A stretch of 22,024 nt of DNA from a virus: IMG/VR virus record IMGVR_UViG_3300025128_000388, positions 1 to 22,024 of that record; one strand, 5' to 3'. A program made the position numbers and the translations under genes. Positions 575-16,943 of this stretch are shown piece after piece. The notes beneath the pieces were generated by a model. It worked only from the letters and a program-made list of their open reading frames with translations. It did no database searches and was not told the DNA's origin. Positions within the stretch are counted from its first letter, which is position 1. Every line of letters begins with the position of its first letter.

Positions 575-590
575 GACCTCACTGGAGGTC
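575..590 (-). promoter_or_regulatory. Perfect hairpin spanning the capsid gene stop codon
   Basis: Read on the minus strand, GACCTC and GAGGTC form a six-base-pair perfect stem around a four-base loop (CAGT). The stem includes the last codons and the TGA of the major capsid gene. What follows is purine-rich rather than a T-run, so it is not a normal intrinsic terminator. It could protect the capsid transcript's 3' end or be a processing site, or be chance, since the same bases encode the last residues (RDLQ). Confidence 0.3.
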
Positions 591-1721
591 ACGGATACTC
601 CCGCTTGCGCCGAAGAACGAGTCCCAGACTTCACCCATTGTTCGGTAAAGTCCTTCCTGACCAAGACGATTGATGGCGAACGGGTCACCAGTCTCGATAC
701 CAGACTCGAAGTATTGTGTTGGGATAGCAGTTTGGAACCACATGTAATCAGTGTCTAGATAGTATAGACGACTAATTGTGTCCGTAGGCATGTCCTTAGT
801 TGGGATAAGTGGCACACCATTGTAAGTTGCAACAAGGAAACCAGCCTCGATACCGGGAACACCCTTTACACCGTTGTAGGTTGGTGTAACACGCTTGGAT
901 TCCATGAATCGCTGCTGACTCTGTAGAAGTTGCTGAACACGCATGAGTGTATCATAACCAGTTAGGATAACCTTGGTGTTACCACCACGAGTCCAGATTT
1001 GCTGGAATAGAGTATCTAAGTGGTCTAGACTCAAGTTCCTGTCTGTAGCGGATGCATCTGCTGATACATCAACCTCAGCACTGTGGAAACCTACTGAACC
1101 GTCACGAGTAATGCTGTAGATATCGTGGTCAGTTGTTGCACTAACGTGGTTAGTGCCAGTAGTCATCTTATCAGGGTCAGAAGTTAGACGGTCAAGCGAC
1201 TCAAAGTCGTTTGCTGCTGGTGTATCAACATCAGTCAATAGCATTTGATTGATGTGGTCAGCGTGATGCTTACCCATTTCTTCCTTGAGGACCTGTCGCA
1301 CATCGCCCAATCCGTCGTCTTTGTCCGATAGGAACATGGACACTTCGGATAGGTCGAAGGTGTGAGCCACTGTCTTAGGCTTTGCAGCCACATGTAGGAA
1401 GTCCGGCTTAGTGGTGTCTGGTAGAGTTGCATTCTCAGCAACACCGCCACCCTTCGTGAAGGAAGGCTTGGCGGTAATGATTCGCCATCCACTGCGCTCC
1501 CACGGTTTCTTAGGCATGATACTGAATGCGTTGAATTCTTGGTTCAACTGAGACCATACTTTTCGTCCGTAGATTGCTTGGTATGTTCCAGCAGTTGTGC
1601 TCATTAACGGAGCATCAGCCTTGAGCAAATCCCCACTACTGTAGGTATATCCAGTCAAAGCGTTTCCGCCGTAGTAATATCGTTCCATGTCTTGAATTGT
1701 TCTTACGTAATCTCTTGCCAT
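579..1721 (-). CDS. Major capsid protein, HK97 fold
   Basis: This protein forms the icosahedral shell. It is 380 residues from the ATG at 1721, a usual size for HK97-fold capsid proteins. Recognisable parts are an N-terminal helical arm (ARDYVRTIQDMER), a central stretch with FDLSEVSMFL resembling the long spine helix region, and an A-domain-like segment with LDHLDTLFQQIWTRGG followed by KVILTGYDTLMRVQQLL. The C-terminal part contains GVPLIPTKDMP and a YYLDTDYMWFQ strand, typical late-domain features. It follows the protease-scaffold gene directly, the standard order. A start at the GTG at 1727 is possible in frame, but it abuts the GGAGGTGA ribosome binding site with no spacing, so the ATG six bases beyond that site is preferred. 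Confidence 0.9.
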   Translation of the reverse strand: MARDYVRTIQDMERYYYGGNALTGYTYSSGDLLKADAPLMSTTAGTYQAIYGRKVWSQLNQEFNAFSIMPKKPWERSGWRIITAKPSFTKGGGVAENATLPDTTKPDFLHVAAKPKTVAHTFDLSEVSMFLSDKDDGLGDVRQVLKEEMGKHHADHINQMLLTDVDTPAANDFESLDRLTSDPDKMTTGTNHVSATTDHDIYSITRDGSVGFHSAEVDVSADASATDRNLSLDHLDTLFQQIWTRGGNTKVILTGYDTLMRVQQLLQSQQRFMESKRVTPTYNGVKGVPGIEAGFLVATYNGVPLIPTKDMPTDTISRLYYLDTDYMWFQTAIPTQYFESGIETGDPFAINRLGQEGLYRTMGEVWDSFFGASGSIRDLQ

Positions 1722-1723
1722 AT

Positions 1724-3187
1724 TCACTCACCTCCACGTAGAGCGCGGTTCGCTAGGCGATGGACATCATCCCATTCCATGCGAGCCAATTCACTCGTGT
1801 CGGGAACAGGAATTGTCTGAGCAGATGCCTCAGACTTAGCGAATGTTTCGCCACTACCACTGCTTAGGTTATCGATTCGCTCACTAAGCGAAAGAACAGC
1901 CTTCTGTAGGTCAGATAGAGGTTCGCGAGAATCAAAGTTCTGTCGAGCAGACTCATTTGCTTCTTCACTCATTTCTTTTTGGAGGCGGTTCTCGAAATAG
2001 TTACCGAGGTCAGTCTTGAAGTGTTGCTCTTTTGCAGCAGCCTTGTAGACTTCATATGCCTGCTCGATATCAGAAGGAGAAACAGACTCAGGAGAAACAA
2101 AGTCTGAACCTTTGATAACATTCTGATTGCCTTTTCCACCTGCACCGAAGTTAGGTTTCTTTGCGCTGGTTCCTTCACCAACAATACCAAGAGGAGGCTG
2201 TCCACGGTGGGATGCACCATCTTCGCCCGGTCCGTAGCCCTTTTCCACTTCATCAAAGTGGTTTCGTGCTGCACTTGGGTCGTATCCTGCGCTCTTTACA
2301 GTAGATTCTAACCACTGTAGGTAGTCAGTTGTAATTACATCGTCCATTTCGTTCTTAGCCATTTTATCATCGTCCTTTTTCTTGTCGTCTTCGTCTTCGT
2401 CTTCGGATTCAGCCTTTTCCTTATCTTCGGAATCTTTCTTATCCTCGTCCTTGGAGTCTTTCTTGCCTTCCATGTGCTCACGGAGACCTTCGGGCATCTT
2501 GCCTTTCTCTGTATCTTCGTAAGCCATCTTATCGTTCTCGGCCTTCTCGACATCTTCCAATCGTTTGGAAAGACGTTCAAGAACGCTATTTAGTTCAGTC
2601 ATCGGGTCGCTCATTGTATCACCATTGTGTTTGCTTGTATCCTCTTTTAGGATTCGGAATTGGGCTTCTGGATTGATGCCCTTTTCGCAGATGGTTACTT
2701 CATGTAGTTCCATCCGTCGAATCTCCCGGTAATCACCACGAGAGGAATCATTTTTATTAACACGCTCAAAAGCCTGTCCACCTATAGAAAAAGAGCGTAA
2801 ATTGCCCTTGCGAATTTCAGCAGCGACTTCACGAGCCTTCTCTATGTCGCCGCGTAACTTGATAACAACAAACATTCCTGTGTCGTCTACTTCGGACTTC
2901 CACATTCGTCCAGACGAATCAGTATATGTAGGAACTACTTCTCCAACTTGAATATTAGAATGAGCAAGTTGGACATTTCGGAAACCATCTGCTTTCATGA
3001 ACTTACCAAAAGCATCTCTTAGAGCATCACGAGTAATGAGGTCGCCTTGTTTGTCGACCATTTCGACGCTGGCGTATCCTGCTACAACAAGGTCCTGACC
3101 CAATCCTTTGAGAAGGATGGGGTCATTCACCGGAGGAGCCATCATCAAAGCCATCAAACTTTCCGAGGTTGTTTCATGGTATATCAA
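1724..3187 (-). CDS. Prohead protease fused to an acidic scaffold-like domain
   Basis: Residues about 30-180 are an HK97-type (S78) prohead protease: GYASVEMVDKQGD opens the fold, His76 lies in LAHSN, Ser134 in RSFSIGG, and LHEVTICEKGINPEA (Glu163) matches the C-terminal conserved block. Residues about 195-285 are strongly charged Lys/Asp/Glu coiled coil, as in scaffold proteins, followed by a Gly/Pro linker and helices to 487. The scaffold should direct shell assembly and be digested by the protease. The last 25 residues share a motif (M-x-W-D-D-V-H) with the 107-residue protein at 10036-10359. The start is uncertain: the TTG at 3187 overlaps the upstream stop but lacks a ribosome binding site; ATGs at 3154, 3145 or 3142 would keep the protease whole. 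Confidence 0.88.
   Translation of the reverse strand: MIYHETTSESLMALMMAPPVNDPILLKGLGQDLVVAGYASVEMVDKQGDLITRDALRDAFGKFMKADGFRNVQLAHSNIQVGEVVPTYTDSSGRMWKSEVDDTGMFVVIKLRGDIEKAREVAAEIRKGNLRSFSIGGQAFERVNKNDSSRGDYREIRRMELHEVTICEKGINPEAQFRILKEDTSKHNGDTMSDPMTELNSVLERLSKRLEDVEKAENDKMAYEDTEKGKMPEGLREHMEGKKDSKDEDKKDSEDKEKAESEDEDEDDKKKDDDKMAKNEMDDVITTDYLQWLESTVKSAGYDPSAARNHFDEVEKGYGPGEDGASHRGQPPLGIVGEGTSAKKPNFGAGGKGNQNVIKGSDFVSPESVSPSDIEQAYEVYKAAAKEQHFKTDLGNYFENRLQKEMSEEANESARQNFDSREPLSDLQKAVLSLSERIDNLSSGSGETFAKSEASAQTIPVPDTSELARMEWDDVHRLANRALRGGE
1728..1735 (-). promoter_or_regulatory. Strong ribosome binding site of the capsid gene
   Basis: GGAGGTGA on the minus strand, the strongest ribosome binding site in the window, is separated by six bases (GTGAAT) from the ATG at 1721. 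It lies inside the end of the protease-scaffold gene. It decides the capsid start: the in-frame GTG at 1727 touches it. Its strength fits the need for many copies of the capsid protein. Confidence 0.75.
2618..2623 (-). promoter_or_regulatory. Possible internal ribosome binding site for a scaffold-only product
   Basis: GGTGAT lies just before an in-frame ATG at 2614 (Met192 of the protease-scaffold), with the GGTG core five bases from the ATG. It falls exactly between the protease domain and the charged scaffold region, and matches the GGTG-type sites of other genes here. Initiation there would give a 296-residue scaffold without protease, as lambda Nu3 is made from within gene C. This is inference from sequence and layout. 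Confidence 0.45.
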
Positions 3188-6100
3188 TCCCGATTATTGC
3201 GCAGATTGATAGAAGCACCCTCAGAGTCACTCTCAATAACGGCTCTGTCTCCTGTTTCTGAGTTTATTGTAAGACTCTTGCGACCTCTTTTCTTTGGGTC
3301 TTCTCTAGGTTTTCTGCGCACAACAGGGTCATAGTCGGGAAGAGCACTTTGGTCGATGAGTTCTGTGCCACCTGTGTTGAAGTTACCCGGTGTGGCGTAA
3401 CCAATACCAAGCCCTTTTGGTCCTGTAAAGGTTGTTTTCTCTTTGAGCATATGCTCAATCATCTCTAATGCAGTTATTAAACCGCGTTTGAAAAACTGGT
3501 CTTCGTCGACCTTCTTTGGTTTCTTTTTGTGGTTAGCAAGAGGCTCAACTTCAACATACGCTTTGTCTTCTTCTTCTTTCTTTTTCTCTTTTTCTGAGCG
3601 CAGAAGAATAGCAGCAGATGTTGCCCAATACGGTCTCTGAGAGTCTGCTAAGTTTTGCGCATAAGTATGAGGAGCATCAGGGTCATGCACCATCCACATC
3701 CCATCTACTTCATCAGCCTTGTAAATTACATCCATTCCTAACCCAGTAAGGTTAACGATGACTTTCCCTTTCGATACACGAACGCGATGAGGCGTATCAA
3801 TTGGATTACCCGACATAATGCCCATAGTCTCGACGCTATCTGTTGCTCCAGCCTCACTATCTTTCTCATATTTGGCACCGTTTAGACGATAGAGGTCATG
3901 TCCTTTTCGTTTGTTATGTGTAATACTATCAGATACAACGGTGATGTAGTCTCCTTCTTCGACATCTTTTACCTGAACTGTTCCTACATCCATGTAATGT
4001 TTATCATCATACTCAACTGAGCGATTACCAATGTCGTCTGCCACATCTTCGTAGATAGGACCTACACCAACACGGGCTGTTCCTCCTGAAACAGACAATA
4101 CGCGCACATCTAAACGCTTACCTGAACTTAGTAGAACCCACTTAGGGTGTCTATTTTCACCACGCATGTAAGTTGCATCTGCATCTCTAAGTAAAATCTG
4201 CTCTGCTTTTGGTTCAGCAAGCAAACCTTCAATCGATTCACCTAAACCAACATCATCAGTTCGACGAGTATTGATTGGAGCAGGAACAGTTACGTTTTCG
4301 TTTGACTCAAATGTCGCACGAAGGTGTCGAATACGGTCTTTTGTCGGCATATTTTCCATGTCTTCGTCACCACACTCTACAATATCGACAATGTGAAGAT
4401 GAGAGCCGTCCCATACTCCATCTAAAATGTATTCATCTGTCTTATTGAGTTCGCGCACACCCTCTTTTACGCTATTTGGAAGTGAAAACTCATCACCATC
4501 AGCCCCTCTTGCCTCTATTTTCTTTTTGTCTTTCGTAACAATTACTCTTTCACCCTCAGGCCAAATAGATACTACCCAATCACCAGTAAATCCGCGCAAA
4601 TGAATAAGGTCTTCAACATCGAAAATGCGATGCATGGCTTTGATAGGAAGAAACTCTCCTTTATCTCGGTCCTCATCTTTGAGCAAAAGGTCATGGTCCG
4701 TCAAAACGTCGAACGAATACCTAAACGTCTCATTGAGGTCTTCCACACCTTGACCAGCAGGGGGGTTGGATGAAAGCATTGCGGAGGATTGGGTTTCTGC
4801 TAAAACATCCTCGTTTGATAATTCACCAAACTCTCGTCGTTGAGCAATATTAGGCAAGAAACTACCATAAGCATGTTTGATTACGTTTCTTGGTAACATC
4901 ATTTGCAATCTTCTATACCCATTCGGTGCTCTTTTAATTTCAGGTCTTTTAGTTCCATCACCGAAGTTAATATTCATTGGAATATCCACCATACGACCAA
5001 AACTTCTGCGGAGTTGAGGGCTATTAAAGATAGGAAGAGGTCTAAACGTATTACCATCGTTGTCTTTGTGTATGGGAAGAGAGGTATTACGATTGAGACG
5101 GATACTACTCAACCCACTATCCGCACGCGACAGGTCTAAAGCGTTCATTCCTACCCTACTATGCATAAAATCGTGCATTTTTTCCGCTGCCTTCTCGTCA
5201 AACACACGAATATTTTCACCTCTAGTAACACCCCCTTTTCCTGTTCTATATCTTGGTAAATCAAAATTAGAATCTGGAAAAGCCATAGCATCTCTACGCA
5301 TTGAGTCTAGCAAATCAGGCAAAAAAGTATTCATATTAATGTAATCGTTTGTTTGTCTTCCTCCTCCACCAACCGATAATCCCCTTGAACGTGATAATTT
5401 TTTCAATTCTTTAATATTCATTGAAGTATACGGAGTAGTTGGTGGATTGTTACCCTGTTGGTTGTCTTGCTCTTCTAAATTAGCAATAAGTTTTGTTTTA
5501 TTCATACCTTGATGTTGAAAAGGATGAGTCTTCATGAACTTCTCTTTGTCGGTAATTTCTGAAAACTTCTTTAAATATTTAAGAGCAGATTTGCGCGTAT
5601 TCTCATCTTCTATCTGTTCTGCATAGTGTTGCATCAAATCAAGTCCTGTTGATTTAGGATTCTTTTCTAATGCATCTCGTAAATTATTCAAAAGTCTCTG
5701 TTGTAAATCAACACCCATATCATCTACACGAGTAGTGGAGTTGAAAACAGGTGCTGTAGAGTGACTACGTATATCTTCAACTATTTCTTTATCCATACCC
5801 ATTTTAGACAAGTGGTCCGCAAACTCTTCTCTTGCTTCTGGGGTCATTCTTCTTGCGCCTTCTACACCCATCTCCAAAAGATGTGGTAAAATTGAGCGAT
5901 AATTGTTGTAAAAGAAGTCGTTTTTGTTACTTACATCTGGGTCATTCATCAATTGGTAAAGTAAACCTTTAGCGATTGGTATACCTGCGTAATATGATTG
6001 CATCATTGCCTTTACCATATACGAGTTTCTGTTGGTATCTTTTTGTGATAACGCAATTGCATCTTTACCCTCACCTTGATTAGCAATACTACGAATATAG

Positions 6101-9100
6101 TATAAGAAGTCTTGATACTGTTTCATTTTTCCACTAGGTGCTAAAAGTTCTTGAGCGGCTTTTACTCTCTCTTCTTCACTTCCTGAAAGTAAATTGTTTA
6201 TTTTGTTGTGAGCCTCTTTGTATTTTTCTGGATTACGAATATCAGACGAGCCTGCATCAACATGGTCAAGAATATTCTTCATGATGATATTTGGATGAGG
6301 ACCAATTATCATTGGTTTACTCTTATCAACCTCTATTTTACCTGTGTTTGGATTATATCCGCCTTTGTATACAATAAAATCGCTTATTGGTTTCTTTTGA
6401 TTCTCTCCCTCTTCATCAAAATGGCGAACAAAGTTTGGAAGAGTAGTTTCTCCTTCTAAGTTTGGCTCAAAACTTATTCTTTCTGGGTTTCCATTTCTAT
6501 CAAGGCGAAATAAATTACGAAAATCGGGATGTATCTCACCACTTGTAAGAGAAAGAGGTGATTCTATTGGTATACCGTTTTCATCTCTTACCATGAATTC
6601 GCTCGGATGCTGTATGTTAGGCAAACTCCCCCTGTTTCCTTTTGAGAATGAATTGAGAGCACCAATAATATGGGGAGCATGAACTCTAGCACCACCACTG
6701 TGTATTTGCTCCGAAGTGTGTAATGGGTTTGTTTCATCACCTTCATTATAATTATACAAAACATGCCTATCTAACGGAAGGTCTTTGAAATCTTCACCAT
6801 CTTTCATCAACCCAGCCCGTTTTGCCCGTTTTGTTTGCGTCATACTACCTCCCATAAGAGGGTCATAATTGTCTAAATGCATAACGTGCCTAGCAAAATC
6901 ACGAATGGCCTCATGAGCAGAAACAGAGTCACCGTCTTCTGTAGGAAAACCGTTTGCGAACAAATTAAAATCGTTATGATTTTCATTATGAGGTCGAGAC
7001 AATCCAAAAATTAAATCTCCTAAATGCATGAACGTGCCGTGATGATTATGTAAATCATCTTCGTCTCTTTGTGCTCTTTTATTTCCGTGCGAAAACAAAG
7101 GTGGTCTGTCTGACCCTCTTCTACTAGCATCTGGCTCATCGTGAATATCTAATCTTCCTCCTTCTCCTTTTGTTTCTGATATTCTCTTGTTGTAAGAGCG
7201 CAAAGACCGAATATGGTCTGCTGGTTGACTGACCATTTGGTTTCGCGCATGTTTGTGAGTGCGAGACAGTGTGTGTAAGTTGCTCTTATCGGCTGTTTGC
7301 ACGTTAGCCCCAGCGAGCATGCCCACAAACGCAGACATGGCTTCACGAGGTTTGAGCAAAAGGTTAGGAGACAACAAAGACATCATGTTCTGCATTGTTT
7401 CTGGGTCAGTTTGACCTCCCATTTCACCAAGAACATTTGCTCCAGTCTCTAAATTGAACTTGCCTGCTTCTCTGGGTTTACCTTTGACCTTTGATTCGCG
7501 CATCTCTGTTGGTATCTGTAAATCACTTACTTCTTCAAAATGAAAACCGGGATACATATCATCGAGCATCGCTGCTACATCCATATCCCCATAACCTAAA
7601 CCACCATGAGAAAGAACATCATAAAGTGGTTTAACAGCACTTGGTTTCATTTCTGTCTTTTTGGTTAAGTCGTTGCTGTCTTTCATTGGACGATGAGGAC
7701 CTTCCATAGCAGACATAGCGTCAGACATGATTTCTCTTGGACGACCTTTGCTGGCTTTCATACGCATTTGGTCAATAATTTTCTCGTAAACAGACTCAGA
7801 AATAATACCAGCATTTACGTATCTATTAATTAAATCATAATTTAGTTTTCCTTCCGCATTTGATATTTCATAATTATGTTCTACACTACCATCTGATTGT
7901 TTCTTGGTGTTCTGAATAACATTTGGAGGCTTACCTTTTGCAGTGCCATGTTCGCTCAATATATTGTCCAAAAGGGAATCTTCTCCCTCAGATTTTGGGT
8001 TACCATCTTTCGTCATCTCTTCCAATATTTTTGCTATGTCGTCCCCACCGACATACTTTAGGTAATCATCGTCTACAACACTGGGTGTTCCACCTGAGTC
8101 TAAATGCGGAACTGCTTTACCGGGGTCATGTGGGTCTGATGTAATTGCATTTTGTAACCAAGCGAGTCTTTCATTGAATATTCTATGTATGGTGTTTCCC
8201 ATTTTATGGGAGTCTTGGAATCCTTCTATGTTTCCTTTTCCTCCATCAAGATGCCAACTTACTACATTCAATGCTTGTTCCTCTGGTAACATTTCTGTGC
8301 CTAACAACCATCCTAAAAGACCGAGCCCAAACCTATCTGGGTATCTGTTTTCTGCTGCTTTTTCAAATCCTTCTTGAGTAAAACCACCATCTTCATCATA
8401 CATGGTTGTCCATATAGTTGCGTCTGGAACTCCCATGTTTCTTAGTATTTGATGTTGTAAGAACTCTTTATCCTCTGGCTCTTTTCCTTTGAACTTCTCT
8501 CTGTATTCTTGCTTGTAATTATCAAGACCCATTTGATACATTCTTTCCATAGGTCCATGACCGTTGATGTCGTCATTACCATGAACATATTCTCCAAAAA
8601 TGCGATTGTGCGGGTGTTTAGAATACTCTTCTTCATGTTCTTTACGTCTTTTATCTAACTCAGATACGTGATGTTCTGAGTCTCTGTTTGAATACATGGC
8701 ACGAACGAGTTTTGTAATACCACTTTCATGCTCATCTGCACGCTCCTGACTTCCTTTCAAAAGACCACTTTTTTCAGGAAAAAGTGCGAGCATCTCAAGA
8801 GCATGAGATAAATCAGCATAGGGACTTCTACCCCTTTCGTAGCCTAATTGTGGGTCAGTAATCTGAAACTCGTCATCTATGCTCATTGTTCTAGGCATAT
8901 GTGAGCGAAAAGCACGCGCTATTGTCTTTCTAAGGTCTTTATGTTGATTTTTATCGAGTCTACCAGTTTCATTTTCCCAAATACGTTCTCGCCATCGTAT
9001 GGGGTCAATAATAGCATCTAATCTTCTACCATCAGAAAGCGTTACTATAGGCGGAGATAACCCAGTTTGTGTTTGACTTGTAGGTATTGCAGTATGTCGA

Positions 9101-9378
9101 TTAAATCTGCCTATCTTTTCAGGGTCAAAAGAGCCCTCAGCGCTATCTCCTTTGCGCTTGCGTGCTTTTGCTTTTAGTAAATTATTATCAACACCATTGT
9201 CGACGAGAATAGAATGTGCTCTAAGTAGAATCTGCTCATCCTCAGGGTGAGTTAAGTGCCCATGCTCAGTTAAATTGAGAACAGCAAAATGAAGGTCTGC
9301 TGCGGAGTCAGCATCATCATGTTTGATGAAGTCAACTACTGCGCGTTCATAGAAGCCACGAGCGTCTTCAACGACCAC
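3184..9378 (-). CDS. Giant 2064-residue structural-module protein with a degenerate DNA-ligase-like domain
   Basis: One uninterrupted frame of 2064 codons fills more than a quarter of the window. Most of it is hydrophilic and rich in His, Asn, Asp, Arg and Met, without membrane segments or a family I recognise. Residues about 1570-1850 resemble an ATP-dependent ligase adenylation domain plus OB fold. The C-terminus has a charged KEKKKEEEDK segment and a basic, Gly-rich end. The GTG start at 9378 follows GAGGTGGTG; an in-frame GTG at 9384 is also possible. It sits between small head genes and the protease-scaffold, so an internal head or ejected protein is a reasonable guess. It could also be a precursor cut by the protease. 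Length alone suggests a tape measure, but tape measures normally lie after the capsid gene and are helical and hydrophobic in part. Confidence 0.85.
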   Translation of the reverse strand: MVVEDARGFYERAVVDFIKHDDADSAADLHFAVLNLTEHGHLTHPEDEQILLRAHSILVDNGVDNNLLKAKARKRKGDSAEGSFDPEKIGRFNRHTAIPTSQTQTGLSPPIVTLSDGRRLDAIIDPIRWRERIWENETGRLDKNQHKDLRKTIARAFRSHMPRTMSIDDEFQITDPQLGYERGRSPYADLSHALEMLALFPEKSGLLKGSQERADEHESGITKLVRAMYSNRDSEHHVSELDKRRKEHEEEYSKHPHNRIFGEYVHGNDDINGHGPMERMYQMGLDNYKQEYREKFKGKEPEDKEFLQHQILRNMGVPDATIWTTMYDEDGGFTQEGFEKAAENRYPDRFGLGLLGWLLGTEMLPEEQALNVVSWHLDGGKGNIEGFQDSHKMGNTIHRIFNERLAWLQNAITSDPHDPGKAVPHLDSGGTPSVVDDDYLKYVGGDDIAKILEEMTKDGNPKSEGEDSLLDNILSEHGTAKGKPPNVIQNTKKQSDGSVEHNYEISNAEGKLNYDLINRYVNAGIISESVYEKIIDQMRMKASKGRPREIMSDAMSAMEGPHRPMKDSNDLTKKTEMKPSAVKPLYDVLSHGGLGYGDMDVAAMLDDMYPGFHFEEVSDLQIPTEMRESKVKGKPREAGKFNLETGANVLGEMGGQTDPETMQNMMSLLSPNLLLKPREAMSAFVGMLAGANVQTADKSNLHTLSRTHKHARNQMVSQPADHIRSLRSYNKRISETKGEGGRLDIHDEPDASRRGSDRPPLFSHGNKRAQRDEDDLHNHHGTFMHLGDLIFGLSRPHNENHNDFNLFANGFPTEDGDSVSAHEAIRDFARHVMHLDNYDPLMGGSMTQTKRAKRAGLMKDGEDFKDLPLDRHVLYNYNEGDETNPLHTSEQIHSGGARVHAPHIIGALNSFSKGNRGSLPNIQHPSEFMVRDENGIPIESPLSLTSGEIHPDFRNLFRLDRNGNPERISFEPNLEGETTLPNFVRHFDEEGENQKKPISDFIVYKGGYNPNTGKIEVDKSKPMIIGPHPNIIMKNILDHVDAGSSDIRNPEKYKEAHNKINNLLSGSEEERVKAAQELLAPSGKMKQYQDFLYYIRSIANQGEGKDAIALSQKDTNRNSYMVKAMMQSYYAGIPIAKGLLYQLMNDPDVSNKNDFFYNNYRSILPHLLEMGVEGARRMTPEAREEFADHLSKMGMDKEIVEDIRSHSTAPVFNSTTRVDDMGVDLQQRLLNNLRDALEKNPKSTGLDLMQHYAEQIEDENTRKSALKYLKKFSEITDKEKFMKTHPFQHQGMNKTKLIANLEEQDNQQGNNPPTTPYTSMNIKELKKLSRSRGLSVGGGGRQTNDYINMNTFLPDLLDSMRRDAMAFPDSNFDLPRYRTGKGGVTRGENIRVFDEKAAEKMHDFMHSRVGMNALDLSRADSGLSSIRLNRNTSLPIHKDNDGNTFRPLPIFNSPQLRRSFGRMVDIPMNINFGDGTKRPEIKRAPNGYRRLQMMLPRNVIKHAYGSFLPNIAQRREFGELSNEDVLAETQSSAMLSSNPPAGQGVEDLNETFRYSFDVLTDHDLLLKDEDRDKGEFLPIKAMHRIFDVEDLIHLRGFTGDWVVSIWPEGERVIVTKDKKKIEARGADGDEFSLPNSVKEGVRELNKTDEYILDGVWDGSHLHIVDIVECGDEDMENMPTKDRIRHLRATFESNENVTVPAPINTRRTDDVGLGESIEGLLAEPKAEQILLRDADATYMRGENRHPKWVLLSSGKRLDVRVLSVSGGTARVGVGPIYEDVADDIGNRSVEYDDKHYMDVGTVQVKDVEEGDYITVVSDSITHNKRKGHDLYRLNGAKYEKDSEAGATDSVETMGIMSGNPIDTPHRVRVSKGKVIVNLTGLGMDVIYKADEVDGMWMVHDPDAPHTYAQNLADSQRPYWATSAAILLRSEKEKKKEEEDKAYVEVEPLANHKKKPKKVDEDQFFKRGLITALEMIEHMLKEKTTFTGPKGLGIGYATPGNFNTGGTELIDQSALPDYDPVVRRKPREDPKKRGRKSLTINSETGDRAVIESDSEGASINLRNNRD
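3829..4671 (-). other. Degenerate nucleotidyltransferase (ATP-dependent DNA ligase-like) domain inside the giant protein
   Basis: The blocks of ATP-dependent ligases appear in order with normal spacing. GFTGDW (1596-1601) is at the motif I (KxDGxR) position, followed by GERVIVTKDKKKIEARG. ILDG (1651-1654) matches motif III and is followed by LHIVDIVECGDEDMENMPTKDR, the stretch that in ligases reads as a strand, Gly-x-Asp/Glu, Pro and Arg. EQILLRD (1726-1732) matches motif IV and KWVLL (1746-1750) motif V, then a beta-rich segment fits an OB fold. The motif I lysine that carries AMP is Gly, its Asp is Thr, and the motif V lysines are Leu, so adenylation is unlikely. The match is by eye. Confidence 0.6.
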
Positions 9379-9391
9379 ACGTTCACCACCT

Positions 9392-10036
9392 CTAACAGCC
9401 CATTTTACACATGCCTTTGTCTACGCCCATTTGCTTACCGCAACCGGGGCATTTCTTGCCTTTGTGAATAATTTTAGAAATAGCCTTGAGTGTAGGACCT
9501 GCGTCCATATCATCACCCATGTCGCCCATATCAGGCATGTCGGGTTTATCTCCACCTGCTTTATCAGCAAGGTCATCAATCATATCTTTGATTCGAGTAG
9601 CAAGGCTTTGAGCGTCATCATCGTCACCGCCCATTGGGGGTTTGTCGTCCATGTCTCCCATAGGACCGGGACCATCATCTGGTGGACCTCCACCCATCAA
9701 AGCATCAAGAGGTCCCTTAGTCAATGCCTCACTAGGATGTGCATTACCACCAGCGTTATTCTCATGCATTGCAAGAGTTGAGCCAGTTTGATGAGGGTTA
9801 CCATCAATCATTTTTACATTTTCAGCAGAAGATGCTTTCTTTGATACAGATTCGATATCTGTTTCAGGAAGTTGTTGATTAGTCCAGTAGTGAGCAGCCT
9901 GAGTTTCTTCAACACCACGCACGTTACGGATTGCACTATCATCACGCTCAACACTCTTGAGCATATCTTTCGCTTTTTCCAATGCTGCATCAACATCGGG
10001 TGCCCACTCACCTGCATTTACTTCAAACGGTCTCAT
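9392..10036 (-). CDS. Acidic 214-residue protein with a C-terminal zinc knuckle
   Basis: The N-terminal 40 residues look helical (DVDAALEKAKDMLKS). The middle (about 108-180) is low complexity, rich in Asp, Gly, Pro and Met (GPGPMGDMDD, PDMPDMGDMGDDMD). The last 25 residues are basic and end in a Cys4 knuckle: C196-x2-C199-x10-C210-x3-C214, with the final Cys as the last residue. The ATG at 10036 overlaps the previous stop (TAATG) and has an AAGGTGG site. It lies between small portal-proximal genes and the giant protein. An acidic protein with a zinc tail suggests a scaffold or connector partner, but I do not recognise the family. Confidence 0.7.
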   Translation of the reverse strand: MRPFEVNAGEWAPDVDAALEKAKDMLKSVERDDSAIRNVRGVEETQAAHYWTNQQLPETDIESVSKKASSAENVKMIDGNPHQTGSTLAMHENNAGGNAHPSEALTKGPLDALMGGGPPDDGPGPMGDMDDKPPMGGDDDDAQSLATRIKDMIDDLADKAGGDKPDMPDMGDMGDDMDAGPTLKAISKIIHKGKKCPGCGKQMGVDKGMCKMGC

Positions 10037-10359
10037 TATTGACTACCACCTTGTGTTTTTTCTGCCATGGCATGTATTTCATCCCACGACATTTCGTGCC
10101 ATGCTTCATTAGATTCAGGAAGCGACATCATTGCTCCGTCGAATCCATCTGCTGCCTTAGCAATAACTGAATCGGTCTCACCGCGCAAAGGGTCCCCCCA
10201 GACATCCTCAGCAGCGGGAGTAGTTGCGCGAACAAAACCAGCGCGTTTGAGAAGAATATCAGCACTGTGCATTTGAGTATTGAGGTCTCGAATTTGAGCG
10301 TCCATACGCTCCATTTTAGAAATAAGAGCGCTTACAAGAATACTAACATCTTCACTCAT
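10036..10359 (-). CDS. 107-residue helical protein sharing motifs with two other module proteins
   Basis: The N-terminal 38 residues form a likely coiled coil (SILVSALISKMERMDAQIRD). A DILLKRAGFV block (35-43) resembles LLKAGFVGF in the 509-residue protein at 15414-16943. The C-terminus, M90-S-W-D-E-I-H96-A-M-A, closely matches the tail of the protease-scaffold, and both tails are about 17 residues from the end. The ATG at 10359 has a GGGTGA site and overlaps the preceding gene by eight bases; the stop overlaps the next start as TAATG. The shared motifs suggest a binding partner or cargo of the same assembly step. No known family recognised. Confidence 0.7.
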   Translation of the reverse strand: MSEDVSILVSALISKMERMDAQIRDLNTQMHSADILLKRAGFVRATTPAAEDVWGDPLRGETDSVIAKAADGFDGAMMSLPESNEAWHEMSWDEIHAMAEKTQGGSQ

Positions 10360-10717
10360 TACCGCTCACCCGCTGACCGTAACCGCTCTGTGGTTTCCAG
10401 TTACTGCGGATACCATCAGGACCAATGTAACCCATTGGGCGCTCACCTTTCTGAATAACACCTTGTCCATCAAACTGCATGACTGGAGCACCACCAGCAT
10501 AAATGTCGTTAGGGCCTGTAGCAGTGACTCCATTAGTTTCAGATTTGTATATTTCTCCTACATCATCAGCAAGATAATCGCTAGTCTGCGCTATACTTCT
10601 AAGAAGTTGTTGTGCAGATACAAGGTCGTTATTACTTATGGCTTCTTTGAAAGAAGCAACAGTAGATTCCAATTTACGAACCATTGGGTCCATCTTACTC
10701 AGGGACGAGGACATCAT
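10352..10717 (-). CDS. 121-residue small protein next to the portal gene
   Basis: The N-terminal 60 residues are predicted helical (MVRKLESTVASFKEAISNN, then LVSAQQLLRSIAQTSDYLADD). The C-terminal half is Gly-rich and polar (GPNDIYAGGAPVMQFDGQG) with no motif I recognise. Two ATGs in a row stand at 10717 and 10714; upstream there is only a weak GCGAGAG, so coupling with the portal gene, which ends 28 bases before, is likely. Position right after the portal suggests a portal-associated or internal head protein, which is inference. Confidence 0.65.
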   Translation of the reverse strand: MMSSSLSKMDPMVRKLESTVASFKEAISNNDLVSAQQLLRSIAQTSDYLADDVGEIYKSETNGVTATGPNDIYAGGAPVMQFDGQGVIQKGERPMGYIGPDGIRSNWKPQSGYGQRVSGNE

Positions 10718-10745
10718 CTCTCGCAGAGTGCATTAGGTCTTGAAC

Positions 10746-12569
10746 CTATCGTGGAAGATTGTCGTTGCCTTTGTTTCTTTTTGCTGGGTCTTTCGCAGCG
10801 TCAACAGCATCTAATGCTTGTTCCATTGGAGTTTTATCTGAGCCTCTTTGATGGGTTTTACCTCTAGGAGCACCATCAGGTGTGCGCACGTCTTCTACAG
10901 GAGCAGGACCACGCTCTCTCTGTCCTGTTCCTTCTCCAAGACCAATTGCTTTCTGAACCATTGGTGGCATTCCTCCACCCGGTGGTGCAGCCCCTGCACC
11001 GGGAGGCATTCCTCTAGGTGGCATTCCGCCTCCGCCCGGTGGTGCCCCCATCGGAGGCATACCCCCTCCACCGGGCATCATAGGCGGCATTCCACCCATC
11101 GGTGGCATTCCTTGCGGACCCCCACCAGCAGGCATTTCACCTGCTTCCGGTTTCTTGTATACGAAGCGTATGTCTCGCCCCGCATCCTCAGTAAGTTCAG
11201 GCTGGAAACCGAGAGCAGCCATTCTTTGAGCAATGTTTACTTCCATCTCATCTCTGCGCAGACGAGTTACATCATCTTCTTCTTCGTTAGGATAAAGAGT
11301 AATTTCCCAATCACTTACTCCTAATTCTTGTAAGAAACGAGGGAATAGTTCTCTTGAATATATTTTTTGACCAAATTCAACAGCGCGGTTTGTAACAAGA
11401 ATTTGCATACCTTCGTTATTCAAACCACCTCCCTTACCTGAATCCATCATAAAAATGTTTGATACACCATAGAATGCAGCGATGCGCATGCGTAATTCAT
11501 CACGGACTTGTGCGTATTGCATTTCATCAAGTGTGTCCATAAAGCGAACAAACTCTACTTTACCTCGACCACTCTGACTTTCAACACCCACTTTTGGAAT
11601 ATAGTGAGGGTCGCGCTCCATTTTCTCTTCTGCCCCTTTCCAGAAAGATGCAGTTGATTGTATGTTATCAGTAGTAATTGCAAGTATACCACGAGGTATT
11701 CTTCGTTTTTGATATGCCAGATACATGTAATTATCCATGGCAGCCAAAGTAGTTGCTTGACGCCAGAGAGTGGCTACAGGAGAGCGCCCGTATAGTTTTG
11801 AAGGATTAAACTTACTAATGTGCACGACTTCTCCTTCAATGTAATATTGGGTTTTACCTGAACCAGCAGTGTTTACAAAGTGAACATCTTGTAATTCTAA
11901 ACCACAAGTTTCACATTTTTCATGGTCACCGTTATTTGGGTAAGTGCGGGAACGATGCACAGGACACACAAGATAACGTCCACCACGAATACCCTTCTTA
12001 TCAGCCACAATACGGAAGAAAGTAGGGTCACCTCGCAAAATCTCACGAACACGGAAAAACTCCATTTCTCCTGTGTCTTTGTTCATGTAGTAATCTTTCA
12101 CAAGAATCATGAAAGCATCATCTACAATGTTCAGGTCCCATTCTAACTCACGAAGAACATCCGTAAACGATTGGTCCATGCTGTTTCTTTGCTCAAGAAG
12201 GTAACGAAGATACACAATTTGGTCTGCATCAGGAGTATCAAACTCATCATGACCACAAACGTGGCATTCTTTCACAGTATCATGTTGATATTCTTCACTA
12301 CAATTTTTACACTTCTTGTGAAATTTTTTCTGAATGTAATACCCACGACGGAATACTTCTTGGCAGAGGGTGTTAATGGTTGTGCGCAAAATAATACTTT
12401 CTTGAACAGTAGCATAAAGTGCAGGTATACTGATACCTTGAACTAACACAGGTTCTTGGATACCTGTTTTCCACAAAGGCATAATTGGCTCAGGAGTAGA
12501 ACGAGTTCGGAAGGGACTAGTGAGACGTTCAACGAATCTTCCGATTCTAGATTGATTATCATCTACCAT
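10746..12569 (-). CDS. Portal protein with two zinc knuckles and a Gly/Pro/Met-rich tail
   Basis: The portal is the ring at one head vertex through which DNA passes. Portal-like features are the N-terminal PLWKTGIQEPVLVQGISIPALYA stretch (split here by its Pro residues), the early helix SIILRTTINTLCQEVFRRG, the segment IEGEVVHISKFNPSKLYGRSPV (about 245-264), which matches the usual portal 'hi-ghrhp' strand-loop, and the helix RIAAFYGVSNIFM (362-374). Unusual are two inserted knuckles, C87-x2-C90-x11-C102-x2-C105 and C202-x2-H205-x13-C219-x2-C222, and a low-complexity tail (474-540) of GGGMPPM repeats followed by a charged end. At 607 residues it is longer than many portals because of these. 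It has an ATG with a GAGGTGG site, and lies downstream of the terminase as expected. Confidence 0.85.
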   Translation of the reverse strand: MVDDNQSRIGRFVERLTSPFRTRSTPEPIMPLWKTGIQEPVLVQGISIPALYATVQESIILRTTINTLCQEVFRRGYYIQKKFHKKCKNCSEEYQHDTVKECHVCGHDEFDTPDADQIVYLRYLLEQRNSMDQSFTDVLRELEWDLNIVDDAFMILVKDYYMNKDTGEMEFFRVREILRGDPTFFRIVADKKGIRGGRYLVCPVHRSRTYPNNGDHEKCETCGLELQDVHFVNTAGSGKTQYYIEGEVVHISKFNPSKLYGRSPVATLWRQATTLAAMDNYMYLAYQKRRIPRGILAITTDNIQSTASFWKGAEEKMERDPHYIPKVGVESQSGRGKVEFVRFMDTLDEMQYAQVRDELRMRIAAFYGVSNIFMMDSGKGGGLNNEGMQILVTNRAVEFGQKIYSRELFPRFLQELGVSDWEITLYPNEEEDDVTRLRRDEMEVNIAQRMAALGFQPELTEDAGRDIRFVYKKPEAGEMPAGGGPQGMPPMGGMPPMMPGGGGMPPMGAPPGGGGMPPRGMPPGAGAAPPGGGMPPMVQKAIGLGEGTGQRERGPAPVEDVRTPDGAPRGKTHQRGSDKTPMEQALDAVDAAKDPAKRNKGNDNLPR

Positions 12570-14011
12570 TAGACCACCTCAGAGCCGAGTGTGTCGGGGT
12601 CGCTCACAGTCCACGACTGGACCTCTGCTTCATCAACCTTCCATTCATCAAGTAATTCTTGACGTTTGTTTGGGTCATCCTTCCAATTGTGCCATTTTAC
12701 GATACGATACAACTCATCTTTTCTCTTGTTAATGAGGTCCCCAGTCTCACCGCGCAGGGTTAAATGCTCCAATACTGCATTGGCTTGCTCCTTCTTCATA
12801 CGTAGATGAGGGAGTAGTCCTTTGAGTAGTTTACTGAGGTCGTCACGACTGTAAAATTGCAAACGATGTTGAGTTCTAGTGCTATTTTTGTGAATTTTCA
12901 AATCTAATTGAAGAATGCCGCACCCCAAAGCCTTGTGAAGTTGTTCACAATGCCACTTACCACGGTCTCCTGTAGCAATTATACCTGCGCGTGGCTCTCC
13001 ACGTTTTGTAATAGTGATATATCCGTCAGCATCAAGGAAGCCAGCAGCGTAAGCCCACGGATTTTTGAGTAAAAGTTCAGGTTCCATCTTTTCAATATCC
13101 CATCTTTTACCCATTTTAACTATATCATAATCTGGACCGTAAGTTTTGAGCAGTCTTGCCATTTTTTGAATAGTAAATCCACTATTACGGGAATCGTTCT
13201 CCATCAAATGATGTGCAATTGTGCGCGAATCCATTGGTCCTAACTGTTCGATAAGTTGTGTCGCACGCTCCATCCACATCATTTCGTGTTTATTCAGAGT
13301 ATCTGACTGATGCAATGTATTTTTCCAAGCAGTGCGAGCATCTTTTCTTTTTTGTATTGCTCCAACCCACAAATCTCTTTGTTGCTCATCCCAATCCCCA
13401 TCTATCTGTGATAACTTACTGATAACATCGTTAGCAGCCTCCCATTGAGTGCATGCTCGACGAAGAGACGTTTCGCGAACATCGCCAAACTTACGTAAAC
13501 TCATCAAATCTCGGTCACTTATACCAAGAGAGCGAACTGCCTCAAGATGTTTTTCAACCCATGGAACTGTTTTCAGAGTTTCTTCTACTTCTAAACGCTT
13601 CATTAAACGAATAGCATCAATTGCTGAGTCGATTTCATCACGCATCGCTTTGTGAACACGACGTTTCATACGTAAATCTTTGACGAGAGTTTCAGCATCT
13701 GACCCCATATATGTTTGAAACCAGCCTTCTTCACTAAGTTTCATTTGTCCTACGACTCGACGCATCTCTTCCTCACGTCTTTGTTTCTCCTCTTCATCCT
13801 CTCCTTTTGGTGGTGTGCGACCAGATAAGGTGCCTTGTCCACCGGATGGACTTGCATTAGCATCACCAAAAGTAGGTCCTATAATCGAACCTTGTTTTAA
13901 CAAAGGGTGCTGAGTTAACTGTTTGATAACCCAGATACGGTCAGGGTCAGTTTCATCAGTTTTGATTACAGCGTCGTAGTCATCACCAACAAGCATGCTC
14001 CCCCATTTCAT
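12569..14011 (-). CDS. Helical protein with winged-helix-like and LAGLIDADG domains, between terminase and portal
   Basis: The 480 residues split into a short N-terminal part with a disordered Gly/Pro/Ser linker (50-75), a long charged helical region (75-245), a likely winged helix (250-305; PMDSRTIAHHL then TIQKMARLLKTYG), a single LAGLIDADG domain (about 316-418; AAGFLDADG at 322-330) and an acidic C-terminal extension. Asp327 and Asp329 of the signature are kept, so a homodimeric nuclease is possible; equally the domain may only bind DNA, as in bacterial WhiA. The ATG at 14011 has a GGGTGG site and overlaps the terminase stop; the stop at 12569 overlaps the portal start. That tight coupling argues for a virion or packaging role rather than a recent selfish insertion. 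Confidence 0.8.
   Translation of the reverse strand: MKWGSMLVGDDYDAVIKTDETDPDRIWVIKQLTQHPLLKQGSIIGPTFGDANASPSGGQGTLSGRTPPKGEDEEEKQRREEEMRRVVGQMKLSEEGWFQTYMGSDAETLVKDLRMKRRVHKAMRDEIDSAIDAIRLMKRLEVEETLKTVPWVEKHLEAVRSLGISDRDLMSLRKFGDVRETSLRRACTQWEAANDVISKLSQIDGDWDEQQRDLWVGAIQKRKDARTAWKNTLHQSDTLNKHEMMWMERATQLIEQLGPMDSRTIAHHLMENDSRNSGFTIQKMARLLKTYGPDYDIVKMGKRWDIEKMEPELLLKNPWAYAAGFLDADGYITITKRGEPRAGIIATGDRGKWHCEQLHKALGCGILQLDLKIHKNSTRTQHRLQFYSRDDLSKLLKGLLPHLRMKKEQANAVLEHLTLRGETGDLINKRKDELYRIVKWHNWKDDPNKRQELLDEWKVDEAEVQSWTVSDPDTLGSEVV
12758..13066 (-). other. LAGLIDADG domain within the 480-residue protein
   Basis: Residues about 316-418: the helix PWAYAAGFLDADGYITI, then GIIATGDRGKWHCEQLHKAL, a strand GCGILQLDLK, and HRLQFYSRDDLSKLLKGLLPHL followed by KKEQANAVLEHL. 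This is the full alpha-beta-beta-alpha-beta-beta-alpha pattern of one LAGLIDADG unit. There is only one unit, so cutting would need a dimer. No intein splice-junction residues surround it. Confidence 0.8.
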
Positions 14012-15402
14012 ATGATACCACCCAACAGGTCATCTAAATCAACTATTCGCTCGCGGAACTCTGTAGTGCCCCAATGAGCCAAGGCAAGTGCTAATGCGAA
14101 GTCATCGTGACGAGCAATACTTTCTAAGCGTCCCTTCTTCGACATACCAAACATCATCAATTCTCGCTCAAGAATGCTAGTTACATCACGAGAGCGGTCG
14201 TCTGCCCATGGTAATTTTATCTGTTCATTTTCAAAACGCATAACGAGTCCCATAAGAAGTGACTCACGTCTTTGTTTAGTAGAAATGAAGGTCTTTACAG
14301 GTAGGTCTGTATCTGCTCTAAGTTCAGTTGCAAACACACGCTGGAAGTGGTTAGATTCTAACTCAATAACAACAGGTTGAAACTTATTATTCAATTTCTG
14401 GATTTCCATTATCTGTGTTCTGAAATCCATTCCTTTTCTGCGCACAACATGCACTAACTCCAGAAGTTCAGGGTTAGTCGATGGGCGACGAAGAACAACC
14501 ATAACAGTATAGTCAGCCTGCCTATCTGACGAAATAGCAGGGTCCCAACCGATGAAGTATTGGTCATCATCATCTCCTGTTGCTCTATCCATCAAAGATA
14601 GAGTGTTATCTTTCGCTAACTGTAAAACAGTAGATGGGAACAAACTGGACATATCGTCCATGGGTTCACACAGATACTCACGAGTAAATGCGATAGCAGG
14701 CATATCCTTGCGTCGAGAGTCAAGAGCCTCTAAGTCCCAACGCTCAGGCCATAGGGCTTTACCTGTTCCATCAATAGCAGGATAAGTCTCAACAAGATAT
14801 CCATCACGTCTTTCTAATTCTGTATACAAGTCAGTAGGAGTAAAGGGTGTTCCTACAATGCAGAGTTGTGCTGTATGGTGGAGAGTAGGAGTAAGAACTT
14901 CATAGAACCAAGACGCAACACGTTGCAACTCAGTATCTGTTGTGCCCCACAAAATATCATCACACAGAATAATATCAGGGTGAATACCACGAACAGCCCC
15001 ACCAACTGACTTTGCACTGATACGTGAACCGTTAGTAAATCCAAAGAATGTCTTCGACCAAGAGTCATGAGCCTTGAGTTTGTTAAACATAGGAACGCCA
15101 CTAATGAGGTCATTTAGATTTCTCATGTGGTGTATCGACTGGTGTAGACTGTGACTGAAAATAACAGCCTCTGTTTTCTCAGTAAACAATGTCTTCCAAA
15201 GAACATACCCAAGAAAGAGTGTAGATTTACCATGGTCACGAGCCGCTTTTACACAATATCGATTATGTGATGCTAAGTTCTCATACCATCGTCGATGATG
15301 GTCTGCTAATTGAAAGCCTAAGATTTGCTCAAAGAAGAACTTGAAGTCTCGCTTGCACATTTCCCAATCGATATCGTCAATAACATCCTGAGAAAGGTCC
15401 AC
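14008..15402 (-). CDS. terL: Terminase large subunit (ATPase and nuclease)
   Basis: This motor pumps genomic DNA into the prohead and cuts it. The ATPase domain has a Walker A at AARDHGKST (53-61), preceded by the adenine-binding region, a Walker B at IILCDDIL (144-151) and a coupling motif CIVGTPF (181-187). The RNase H-like nuclease domain begins at FIGWDPAISSD (Asp287), continues with VVIELESNHFQ (347-354) and ends at the HDDFALALALAHW helix (432-444), giving the expected acidic residues. At 464 residues it has normal length. The start is a GTG at 15402 with a GAGGTGG site seven bases upstream; the site overlaps the end of the previous gene. The end overlaps the next gene's ATG. Confidence 0.95.
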   Translation of the reverse strand: MDLSQDVIDDIDWEMCKRDFKFFFEQILGFQLADHHRRWYENLASHNRYCVKAARDHGKSTLFLGYVLWKTLFTEKTEAVIFSHSLHQSIHHMRNLNDLISGVPMFNKLKAHDSWSKTFFGFTNGSRISAKSVGGAVRGIHPDIILCDDILWGTTDTELQRVASWFYEVLTPTLHHTAQLCIVGTPFTPTDLYTELERRDGYLVETYPAIDGTGKALWPERWDLEALDSRRKDMPAIAFTREYLCEPMDDMSSLFPSTVLQLAKDNTLSLMDRATGDDDDQYFIGWDPAISSDRQADYTVMVVLRRPSTNPELLELVHVVRRKGMDFRTQIMEIQKLNNKFQPVVIELESNHFQRVFATELRADTDLPVKTFISTKQRRESLLMGLVMRFENEQIKLPWADDRSRDVTSILERELMMFGMSKKGRLESIARHDDFALALALAHWGTTEFRERIVDLDDLLGGII

Positions 15403-15413
15403 TCAGAACCACC

Positions 15414-16943
15414 TCACTGATGGGTCTTCCTGAATAAAAGCGCATCCCAAGCAAGGTCCATAGGTGAATCGTAACTCAAATTGAGTTTTTGTGGATTCAT
15501 TGGGTCAGCATTAGGGTCTACAAACTCCATATCAGCAGGTGGTCCACCACCAACGGGTTGTTTAGGAGCAAAAGTTCCTGTAAAATCAGGACCAAAATAT
15601 CTTCTCATCATTTCTTGATTGGCTTCGTTTTCATATCCTTCTTGCAATCTTCGAGCCATTGTATCTGTAAGACCTTTATCACCTAATTGTAGTGGTAGTG
15701 AAAAGTCTCCCTCCTCAGTAATGGGATTGCCAGAAGCATCCCTAAATCTACCAACTAAAGACCCAAGTGATTTTCCTGACCCACCGTAACCTTTGAGGCC
15801 GCCTAACCCCGCCATCATTTGTTGATATTCAGACAATTCCTCACCCTCAGGCGCAGTCATGGTTGCTGGTGGAGCCTTTGGTTCAGGCATTGAAGGTGTT
15901 GTTGCACCGCCCTCCTGTCTTCTCTGTATCTCCTTAAGTTGCTCATTAAGTTCATCTTGTTGCTGTTGTAATTCATCATCAACAGGGTCTTGTCCAGCAA
16001 CTTCCGTAGATTTAGGTGCAACCTTCACTGTTTTAGCGTCTTTCTTTGCGCGAATCTCTTTACCTGCCTCTGGGTCAGCAGCAGTTGGAGCAGTTTTTGG
16101 TTTTGCAGCAGGTTCTGGTTTTGCAGCAGGTTCTGGTTTTGCAGCAGGTGTTGGGTCTGGAGCAGATGCTGGTGTTGGTGGTGGTGTTGGGTCTGGAGCA
16201 GGTGCTGGGTCTGGAGCAGGTGTTGGTGCTACATCTGTAGGAACCTCTGGAGCAGGTGCTGCTGGTGGTGCTGCTTCCTGAGCAGGAGCAGCAGGAGCAT
16301 CATCTTTCTCAGGCTTACCAAACTCACTAACGTCAACTCCTAAGTTTCGTGCGATATCTGCTAAATATTTTCTTTGCGCTTCTTCGTCCTGTCCTGCCAT
16401 AGCGCCAGTAAAAGCCTCCGTTGCGCGACTACCTCTTCTTTCGTTAAGGAATTGTTTGCCTTGTTCTCCCATTCTACCTAGTCTTGCTTTTGCTCTTTCC
16501 ATCATACTAGCAGGTATCTTGGGTGCTCCTTCTCCAAAGTCATAGTAAGCAGAGGGGCCTTTTTCTCCGGGTGCTGCTCTTGTAGGCTCCATACCTTGTT
16601 GTTGAGCAAAACTCCTTACTTGTGCTCGTTCGCTAGGACGAAGCACAGGTATTGAAAATTGTTGTTGAGTTCGGGTTGGTTGCATTGAAGCACCGCCGGG
16701 AGCCGTATACACACCGGGCATTTCTCCGGGCCTTTGTTCTCCATGACGACCCATTCGTGTTGTTTGGATTCCTCCTCCTTCGGCTGGCACATTAGTAAAA
16801 GAGCCTGCTTGCTGCTTCAACAAAACGTCGTCACCATCGAAGCCAACAAAGCCTGCTTTGAGCAAAAACATAACAGTTGCATCTTCTTCTCCATGCGCTA
16901 TACAAGCCACACCATATTCGTATTCAGACATGATGTAGGTCAT
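15414..16943 (-). CDS. 509-residue Pro/Ala/Gln-rich protein before terminase, unknown
   Basis: The N-terminus (EYGVACIAHGEEDATVMFLLKAGFVGFDG) looks folded and contains an LLKAGFV block also seen in the 107-residue protein. Residues about 90-215 are mixed Arg/Gln/Gly-rich; 215-290 are a Pro/Ala/Asp linker with KPEPAA repeats; 320-345 form a Gln/Glu-rich coiled coil (ELQQQQDELNEQLKEI). The rest is Gly/Pro-rich with short helices, ending FRKTHQ. It starts with an ATG at 16943 behind AAGGTGG; a second ATG at 16931 is less well spaced. No family recognised. The disordered, repeat-rich layout suggests a flexible scaffold or internal head protein, which is a guess. Confidence 0.7.
   Translation of the reverse strand: MTYIMSEYEYGVACIAHGEEDATVMFLLKAGFVGFDGDDVLLKQQAGSFTNVPAEGGGIQTTRMGRHGEQRPGEMPGVYTAPGGASMQPTRTQQQFSIPVLRPSERAQVRSFAQQQGMEPTRAAPGEKGPSAYYDFGEGAPKIPASMMERAKARLGRMGEQGKQFLNERRGSRATEAFTGAMAGQDEEAQRKYLADIARNLGVDVSEFGKPEKDDAPAAPAQEAAPPAAPAPEVPTDVAPTPAPDPAPAPDPTPPPTPASAPDPTPAAKPEPAAKPEPAAKPKTAPTAADPEAGKEIRAKKDAKTVKVAPKSTEVAGQDPVDDELQQQQDELNEQLKEIQRRQEGGATTPSMPEPKAPPATMTAPEGEELSEYQQMMAGLGGLKGYGGSGKSLGSLVGRFRDASGNPITEEGDFSLPLQLGDKGLTDTMARRLQEGYENEANQEMMRRYFGPDFTGTFAPKQPVGGGPPADMEFVDPNADPMNPQKLNLSYDSPMDLAWDALLFRKTHQ
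16099..16152 (-). repeat. Three 18-base tandem repeats encoding KPEPAA
   Basis: The plus-strand unit GGTTTTGCAGCAGGTTCT occurs at 16099-16116 and 16117-16134 and, with two changed bases, at 16135-16152. On the coding strand it gives Lys-Pro-Glu-Pro-Ala-Ala. Looser GGTGTTGGGTCTGGAGCA-type units continue to about 16233 and encode Pro-Ala-Pro-Asp-Pro. It is an in-frame linker array, prone to length change. Confidence 0.8.

Follow-up and report, generated by a model that had tools for sequence, protein, structure and literature searches.

The giant gene and its neighbourhood

The window analysed here is a 22-kb virus record (IMGVR_UViG_3300025128_000388), probably a fragment, whose minus strand carries, in order, genes for a terminase, a 480-aa protein, a portal, three small proteins, a giant protein, a prohead protease, and the major capsid protein (MCP; Table 1). 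The 480-aa protein (positions 12569-14011, minus strand) contains a LAGLIDADG-type-looking stretch (AGFLDADGYITI...), and a Pfam search with it returned no match; in haloviruses, HNH or LAGLIDADG endonuclease genes occur in nearby intervals. The gene preceding the giant encodes a 214-aa protein (9392-10036, minus strand) whose C-terminal end is a short zinc-ribbon-like stretch rich in cysteine (CPGCGKQMGVDKGMCKMGC), and the protein encoded at 21478-22023 (minus strand) has an N-terminal Gly-Met-Ala repeat (GMGAGMGAGMGAGMGMG).

Table 1. Coordinates of the giant gene, its neighbours, and its ligase-like features in the window; residue numbers are those of the giant protein.
Feature	Position	Strand	Remarks
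Terminase large subunit	15402..14008	-	
Portal protein	12569..10746	-	32% identical to HCTV-5 portal
Giant head-module gene, single ORF	9378..3184	-	2064 aa
Helical region, residues 1107-1284	5527..6060	-	Largely confident prediction (AlphaFold2)
Ligase-type core (adenylation + OB domain), residues 1576-1850	3829-4653	-	
Ligase-type adenylation (nucleotidyltransferase) domain, residues 1576-1756	4111..4653	-	Catalytic residues lost
MHRIF, residues 1582-1586, where ligases have the PML(A) segment	4621..4635	-	H1583 and R1584 invariant
GFTGDW, residues 1596-1601, family-specific motif	4576..4593	-	G1596 and W1601 in 151/151 aligned domains
Motif I position, WPEGER, residues 1606-1611	4546..4563	-	Catalytic Lys replaced by Trp1606
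Motif III, DGV, residues 1653-1655	4414..4422	-	Glu replaced by I/V/L/T/A in 152/152
Motif IIIa, VDIV, residues 1664-1667	4378..4389	-	Asp1665 invariant; stacking Phe mostly lost
Motifs IV-V, EQILLRDADATYMRGENRHPKWVLLS, residues 1726-1751	4126..4203	-	Lys replaced by Arg1731, Lys by Leu1749, Lys by Ser1751
Ligase-type OB-fold domain, residues 1757-1850	3829..4110	-	AlphaFold2 models and Foldseek alignments of about 350 columns
Conserved C-terminal tail, residues 1976-2018, KEKTTFTGPKGLGIGYATPGNFNTGG...PDYD	3325..3453	-	
Prohead protease (Peptidase_S78)	3187..1724	-	Start overlaps stop of the giant gene
Major capsid protein (SU10_MCP)	1727..579	-	33% identical to MCP of halovirus HCTV-5

The whole giant protein had no significant match in Pfam, PHROGs, or PDB sequences. 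Contig scans recovered giants with the ligase domain in at least 423 IMG/VR contigs, whose source samples are presumably mostly marine, judged by sample numbers; hits in these scans were confirmed by tblastn, with E-values that are not database-wide. No relatives of the giant were found in two scans of 84,980 prokaryote genomes, nor among the INPHARED phages. The 124 complete copies analysed were 1776-2577 aa long. Gene order around the giant was invariable: the prohead protease lay after it in all 153 copies with enough downstream sequence, and the portal lay before it in all 55 copies with enough upstream sequence. In one relative (L277, 4725-6353), the ligase-like domain sits in an open frame of 543 aa whose start lies just upstream of the domain; this may reflect a gene that is naturally split or a frameshift from assembly. 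A 103-kb relative (L101) has a single 5109-aa open frame in its structural module (2896-18222, minus strand).

The C-terminal quarter of the giant is an archaeal-type DNA ligase core

The original prediction had placed a ligase-like domain inside this giant, between the portal and capsid genes, and fold, profile, and synteny data all supported that placement. Residues 1530-1880 were modelled with AlphaFold2 from 14 sequences, giving a mean pLDDT of 78, with most of the core above 80. When this model was compared with the PDB by Foldseek, the structural search that had been named as a check on the prediction, archaeal ATP-dependent DNA ligases came out on top of 138 matches at E<=1e-3, the best being the Thermococcus ligase 4eq5 (E 1.8e-14) and 2cfm (E 4.3e-14), with probability 1.00. 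A second, longer AlphaFold2 model built from 54 sequences gave an agreeing Foldseek result, as did a search of a viral-model library. At the profile level, HMMER matched the family profile to 4eq5 among PDB sequences (E 1.9e-5), and hhalign aligned it with a profile of seven real ligases over 216 columns (probability 96.3%, E 1.4e-9, score 51.6); 20 column-shuffled control profiles scored 22.6 or less, and a polymerase control reached a probability of 0.15%.

The Pfam profile PF01068 (DNA_ligase_A_M) matched 17 of 23 diverse full-length giant relatives, and it scored above its curated cut-off in 4/18, 13/24, and 5/9 relative contigs. By itself, the window fragment 3829-4671 reached an E-value of 0.02 with this profile, below the curated cut-off, as would be expected if the resemblance were a chance pattern rather than a ligase fold. 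However, such an artefact is contradicted by the fold searches, the profile-profile comparison, and the PF01068 matches in relatives, and we regard it as barely conceivable. There were also weak Pfam matches to the Snurportin-1 m3G-cap-binding domain and to mRNA capping enzyme, which have the nucleotidyltransferase fold as well; of these, snurportin binds its ligand but does not catalyse. These matches were weaker than those to DNA ligase, and searches of solved structures ranked DNA ligases first.

We conclude that the C-terminal quarter of the giant is an archaeal-type ATP-dependent DNA ligase core with adenylation and OB domains. Like the archaeal replicative ligases of Thermococcus and Pyrococcus (4eq5, 2cfm, 3rr5), it has its motifs in the order I, III, IIIa, IV, V, a PxKPM-like segment 24 residues ahead of the lysine position, the G and usually the R of KxDGxR, and a TY..G.R...W stretch between motifs IV and V. 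Unlike them, it lacks the catalytic Lys, other key residues, and a detectable N-terminal DNA-binding domain, is shorter between motifs III and IIIa, is fused to about 1550 further residues, and is encoded in the head module instead of with replication genes.

Catalytic residues are lost across the domains surveyed

Motif I had originally been read as GFTGDW, with glycine in place of the AMP-carrying lysine. A 34-residue segment of the giant (PIKAMHRIFDVEDLIHLRGFTGDWVVSIWPEGER) aligned gap-free to the Thermococcus ligase 3rr5, and in this register the lysine corresponds to Trp1606, the Asp to Glu1608, the Gly to Gly1609, and the Arg to Arg1611. Both hhalign and HMMER gave the same register, and 50 relatives keep xDGxR at this place (YDGxR in 49 of them) with Trp, Phe, or Tyr where the lysine would be. 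On these grounds, we placed the motif I lysine at Trp1606. The loss of the lysine was therefore borne out, whereas GFTGDW lay about ten residues off register; GFxGDW is a nearly invariant family-specific motif just upstream of the true motif I. The proposed change of the neighbouring Asp to Thr did not hold, as the window has Glu1608 here and 53 relatives have Asp, and the proposed spacing of 55 residues between motifs I and III was unsound because it was counted from the wrong motif I. For motif V, where both lysines had been taken to be leucine, this is correct for the first (Leu1749), but the second is Ser1751.

To describe the losses across the family, we surveyed 152 distinct domains with pairwise identity down to 28%. 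Lysine occupied the motif I position in none of the 152, being replaced by Trp (81), Tyr (40), Leu (13), Phe (12), Met (4), or Ile (1). The motif III Glu was likewise absent from every domain, the motif IV Lys was Arg in 148/152 (R1731 of the window), the first motif V Lys was always L, V, or M (0/152 Lys), and the second was kept in a single domain (1/152). Altogether, 135/152 domains retained none of the six catalytic residues, and no domain retained more than two. Because catalytic residues are missing in all domains surveyed, classical lysyl-AMP chemistry appears very unlikely. The replacement of the lysine by a bulky aromatic (Trp, Tyr, or Phe in 133/151) further suggests that the AMP pocket may be plugged.

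Two features would fit a domain that is still an enzyme, either through chemistry re-invented in the old pocket or through residual nucleotide binding. Forty-nine relatives have a lysine one residue upstream of the canonical place (position ~1605) in K-W-Y-D-G or a similar sequence (e.g. S-K-W-Y-D-G-K-R), with an aromatic at the lysine's place, and the former motif IV-V region has a near-invariant R-D, E, and R-H-P. However, in these 49 relatives motif III has no Glu and motif V has lost its first Lys; in addition, K-x-x-D-G differs from the ligase motif, and neighbouring residues of a strand point to opposite sides. We therefore consider a surviving enzyme highly improbable. We also looked among the relatives for an ordinary KxDG in another register close by, and none of the 152 domains had one, the upstream lysines all sitting in the K-x-x-D-G frame with other catalytic residues lost, so the claim of a pseudo-ligase survives. 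Judged from residue conservation, the invariant set that replaces the active site (R1731-D1732, E1741, and R1743-H1744-P1745) would also fit a new ligand or a new activity.

The ligase-like domain is under strong purifying selection

Comparison of the window with three near relatives gave dN/dS values of 0.05-0.13 for the ligase core, which rule out a decaying pseudogene. The core is also the best-conserved part of the giant, with a commonest-residue fraction of about 0.4-0.8 versus about 0.2-0.3 over most of the rest; the N-terminal parts are highly variable. Together, these data indicate that the ligase-like domain is in use and under strong purifying selection. In the motif IV-V region, D1732, T1736, E1741, R1743, H1744, P1745, and W1747 are invariant and Y1737 is also conserved, and the basic residues among the invariant set of the domain are H1583, R1584, R1682, R1687, R1731 (148/152), R1743, H1744, K1746, and R1786. 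The net charge of the domain is near that of real ligases, the window copy being acidic. Conservation of the C-terminal tail (KEKTTFTGPKGLGIGYATPGNFNTGG), which has no known match, is about equal to that of the ligase fold, and this tail beyond the OB fold is under equal constraint.

The giant is carried by magrovirus-like viruses, whose annotated ligase is probably the inactive domain

The 22-kb window itself has no PolB, chaperonin, or replication genes, and we turned to relatives' contigs of 103 and 118 kb. These encode a family B DNA polymerase, a TCP-1/cpn60 chaperonin, an RFC-like ATPase, ERCC4, and PD-(D/E)XK nucleases, and they show the features by which Magrovirales are recognized: a genome of about 90-118 kb in which PolB, a chaperonin gene, and replication genes of archaeal type lie opposite the structural module. 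This gene set is that of the magroviruses, viruses of marine Poseidoniales (PMC10768690, PMC5332604, PMC12999244), and the viruses carrying the giant are therefore magrovirus-like archaeal viruses. By portal and MCP, the closest isolates in phage records were Druskaviridae haloviruses (31-33% identity), in agreement with the relationship already described between magroviruses and that family (PMC10768690, PMC8651126).

ICTV profiles and a survey count a DNA ligase among the magrovirus replication genes (PMC10768690, PMC12999244, PMC10160649), and in the Group A magrovirus contig_156409, an annotated 'ATP-dependent DNA ligase' adjoins the prohead protease (PMC7318539). We searched for a second ligase in sets of 18, 24, and 9 giant-bearing contigs (G012 being in both of the first two sets, and nine of all these contigs being at least 95 kb long). 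PF01068 matched the giant ORF in 11/18 (the other seven having no match at all), 24/24, and 9/9 contigs, and it had no match outside the giant ORF in any of the three sets. There was also no PF01068 match in a set of 36 contigs with a polymerase gene, of which many are short, no NAD-dependent ligase (PF01653) in the 18 contigs, and no RNA ligase (PF09414) in the 24. As a positive control, HGTV-1's own ligase scored 93 bits with PF01068; the no-second-ligase result depends on Pfam sensitivity and comes from contigs that are often fragments.

Since the annotated ligase shares the prohead-protease adjacency of the giant and giant-bearing contigs yielded no other ligase, the published magrovirus 'ATP-dependent DNA ligase' is probably the dead domain of the giant, its identity being judged from the published gene position. 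The two also share the virus type (PolB, chaperonin, RFC-like ATPase, ERCC4, and PD-(D/E)XK); unlike the replication gene described in the literature, the giant domain lacks catalytic residues and is part of a giant head-module protein. Reviews credit magroviruses with genes for most of a replisome, an ATP-dependent DNA ligase among them (PMC10768690, PMC12999244, PMC10160649); if this identification is right, that statement needs correcting, and magroviruses must rely on a host ligase. The authors of the magrovirus genomes or Philosof et al. (2017) may already have spotted the inactivation; our searches of open-licence literature found no described pseudo-ligase of this kind. Such a large, deeply conserved set of pseudo-ligases would be one in which selection acts on non-catalytic functions only, with ligase-fold binding separable from chemistry.

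A putative binding module in the virus head

What the literature lists as the 'DNA ligase' of these viruses is probably a component of the virion with no enzymatic activity. The interpretation we favour, to which we give roughly an even chance, is that an archaeal-type ligase core was captured, lost its lysine-AMP chemistry, and was kept, within a head-associated protein, as a module that binds but does not catalyse, with DNA or DNA ends a likelier ligand than protein only. It is supported by the fold, the catalytic loss, the constraint, the fixed position in the head module (153/153 and 55/55), and the occurrence in at least 423 contigs. The giant protein would be built into, or packaged in, the head, where the ligase fold would grip either a partner protein or DNA (at a genome end, at a nick, or along its path at the portal) with no reaction following; its role would then lie in packaging the genome, handling its ends, or ejecting it. 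That a ligase without activity can still work at DNA ends is seen in yeast Dnl4, whose catalytic mutants continue to be recruited to breaks and to promote their joining (PMC3694833).

Contact with DNA is supported by the retained OB fold and the invariant basic residues. Counting against it, a search of 24 contigs for the N-terminal DNA-binding domain of ligases (PF04675) found none, although a divergent helical domain could escape such a search; the giant domain lacks, in the hhalign alignment, some 29 residues that archaeal ligases have between motifs III and IIIa; and the window copy is acidic. The DNA-binding function might have been lost as well, leaving a pure protein-protein module that makes an architectural contact to the portal, the protease or scaffold, or the capsid shell. 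The missing PF04675 domain, the fixed position of the giant ORF beside the protease gene, and the equally constrained C-terminal tail would all agree with such a module, but the OB fold and the basic set listed above speak for more than protein contacts, and we judge it unlikely, if well worth keeping in view.

For the binding module that we prefer, gripping nucleic acid or sensing nicks during packaging or in the head, the specific role originally suggested, is a plausible candidate; the N-terminal DNA-binding domain usual in ligases did not turn up, and the net charge says nothing either way. A still narrower version, which we put forward tentatively and hold to be doubtful in its full form, is that the aromatic-plugged pseudo-ligase senses, without catalysis, an end, a nick, or a gap in the packaged DNA and couples it to the portal, packaging, or ejection, in a large group of ocean archaeal viruses with no real replicative ligase.

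A different kind of role is brought up by the slot between portal and protease in the Druskaviridae HVTV-1 and HCTV-5, which have a homologous portal and MCP and where the slot likewise holds large, multidomain proteins. There, it encodes a MuF-type protein and a Zeta-toxin/ADP-ribosyltransferase protein of about 1300 aa, with an additional ADP-ribosyltransferase and an annotated sialidase in HCTV-5; the giant carries a ligase fold instead. If the slot were a cargo locus, the giant could be an effector that is injected with the genome and works inside the host, for instance by capping DNA ends or blocking host ligase or repair, and its highly variable N-terminal parts would suit this function. 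However, effector domains get swapped, whereas all the copies recovered conserve the ligase fold; no MuF, Zeta-toxin, or ADP-ribosyltransferase domain was found in the giant, Pfam detected no toxin-like domain in its relatives, and it had no profile similarity to HVTV-1 gp115. We therefore regard an ejected effector as rather improbable. The slot itself spans 9379-14564 in HVTV-1 (L224) and 5223-14693 in HCTV-5 (L225), and in these haloviruses it looks like a cargo locus.
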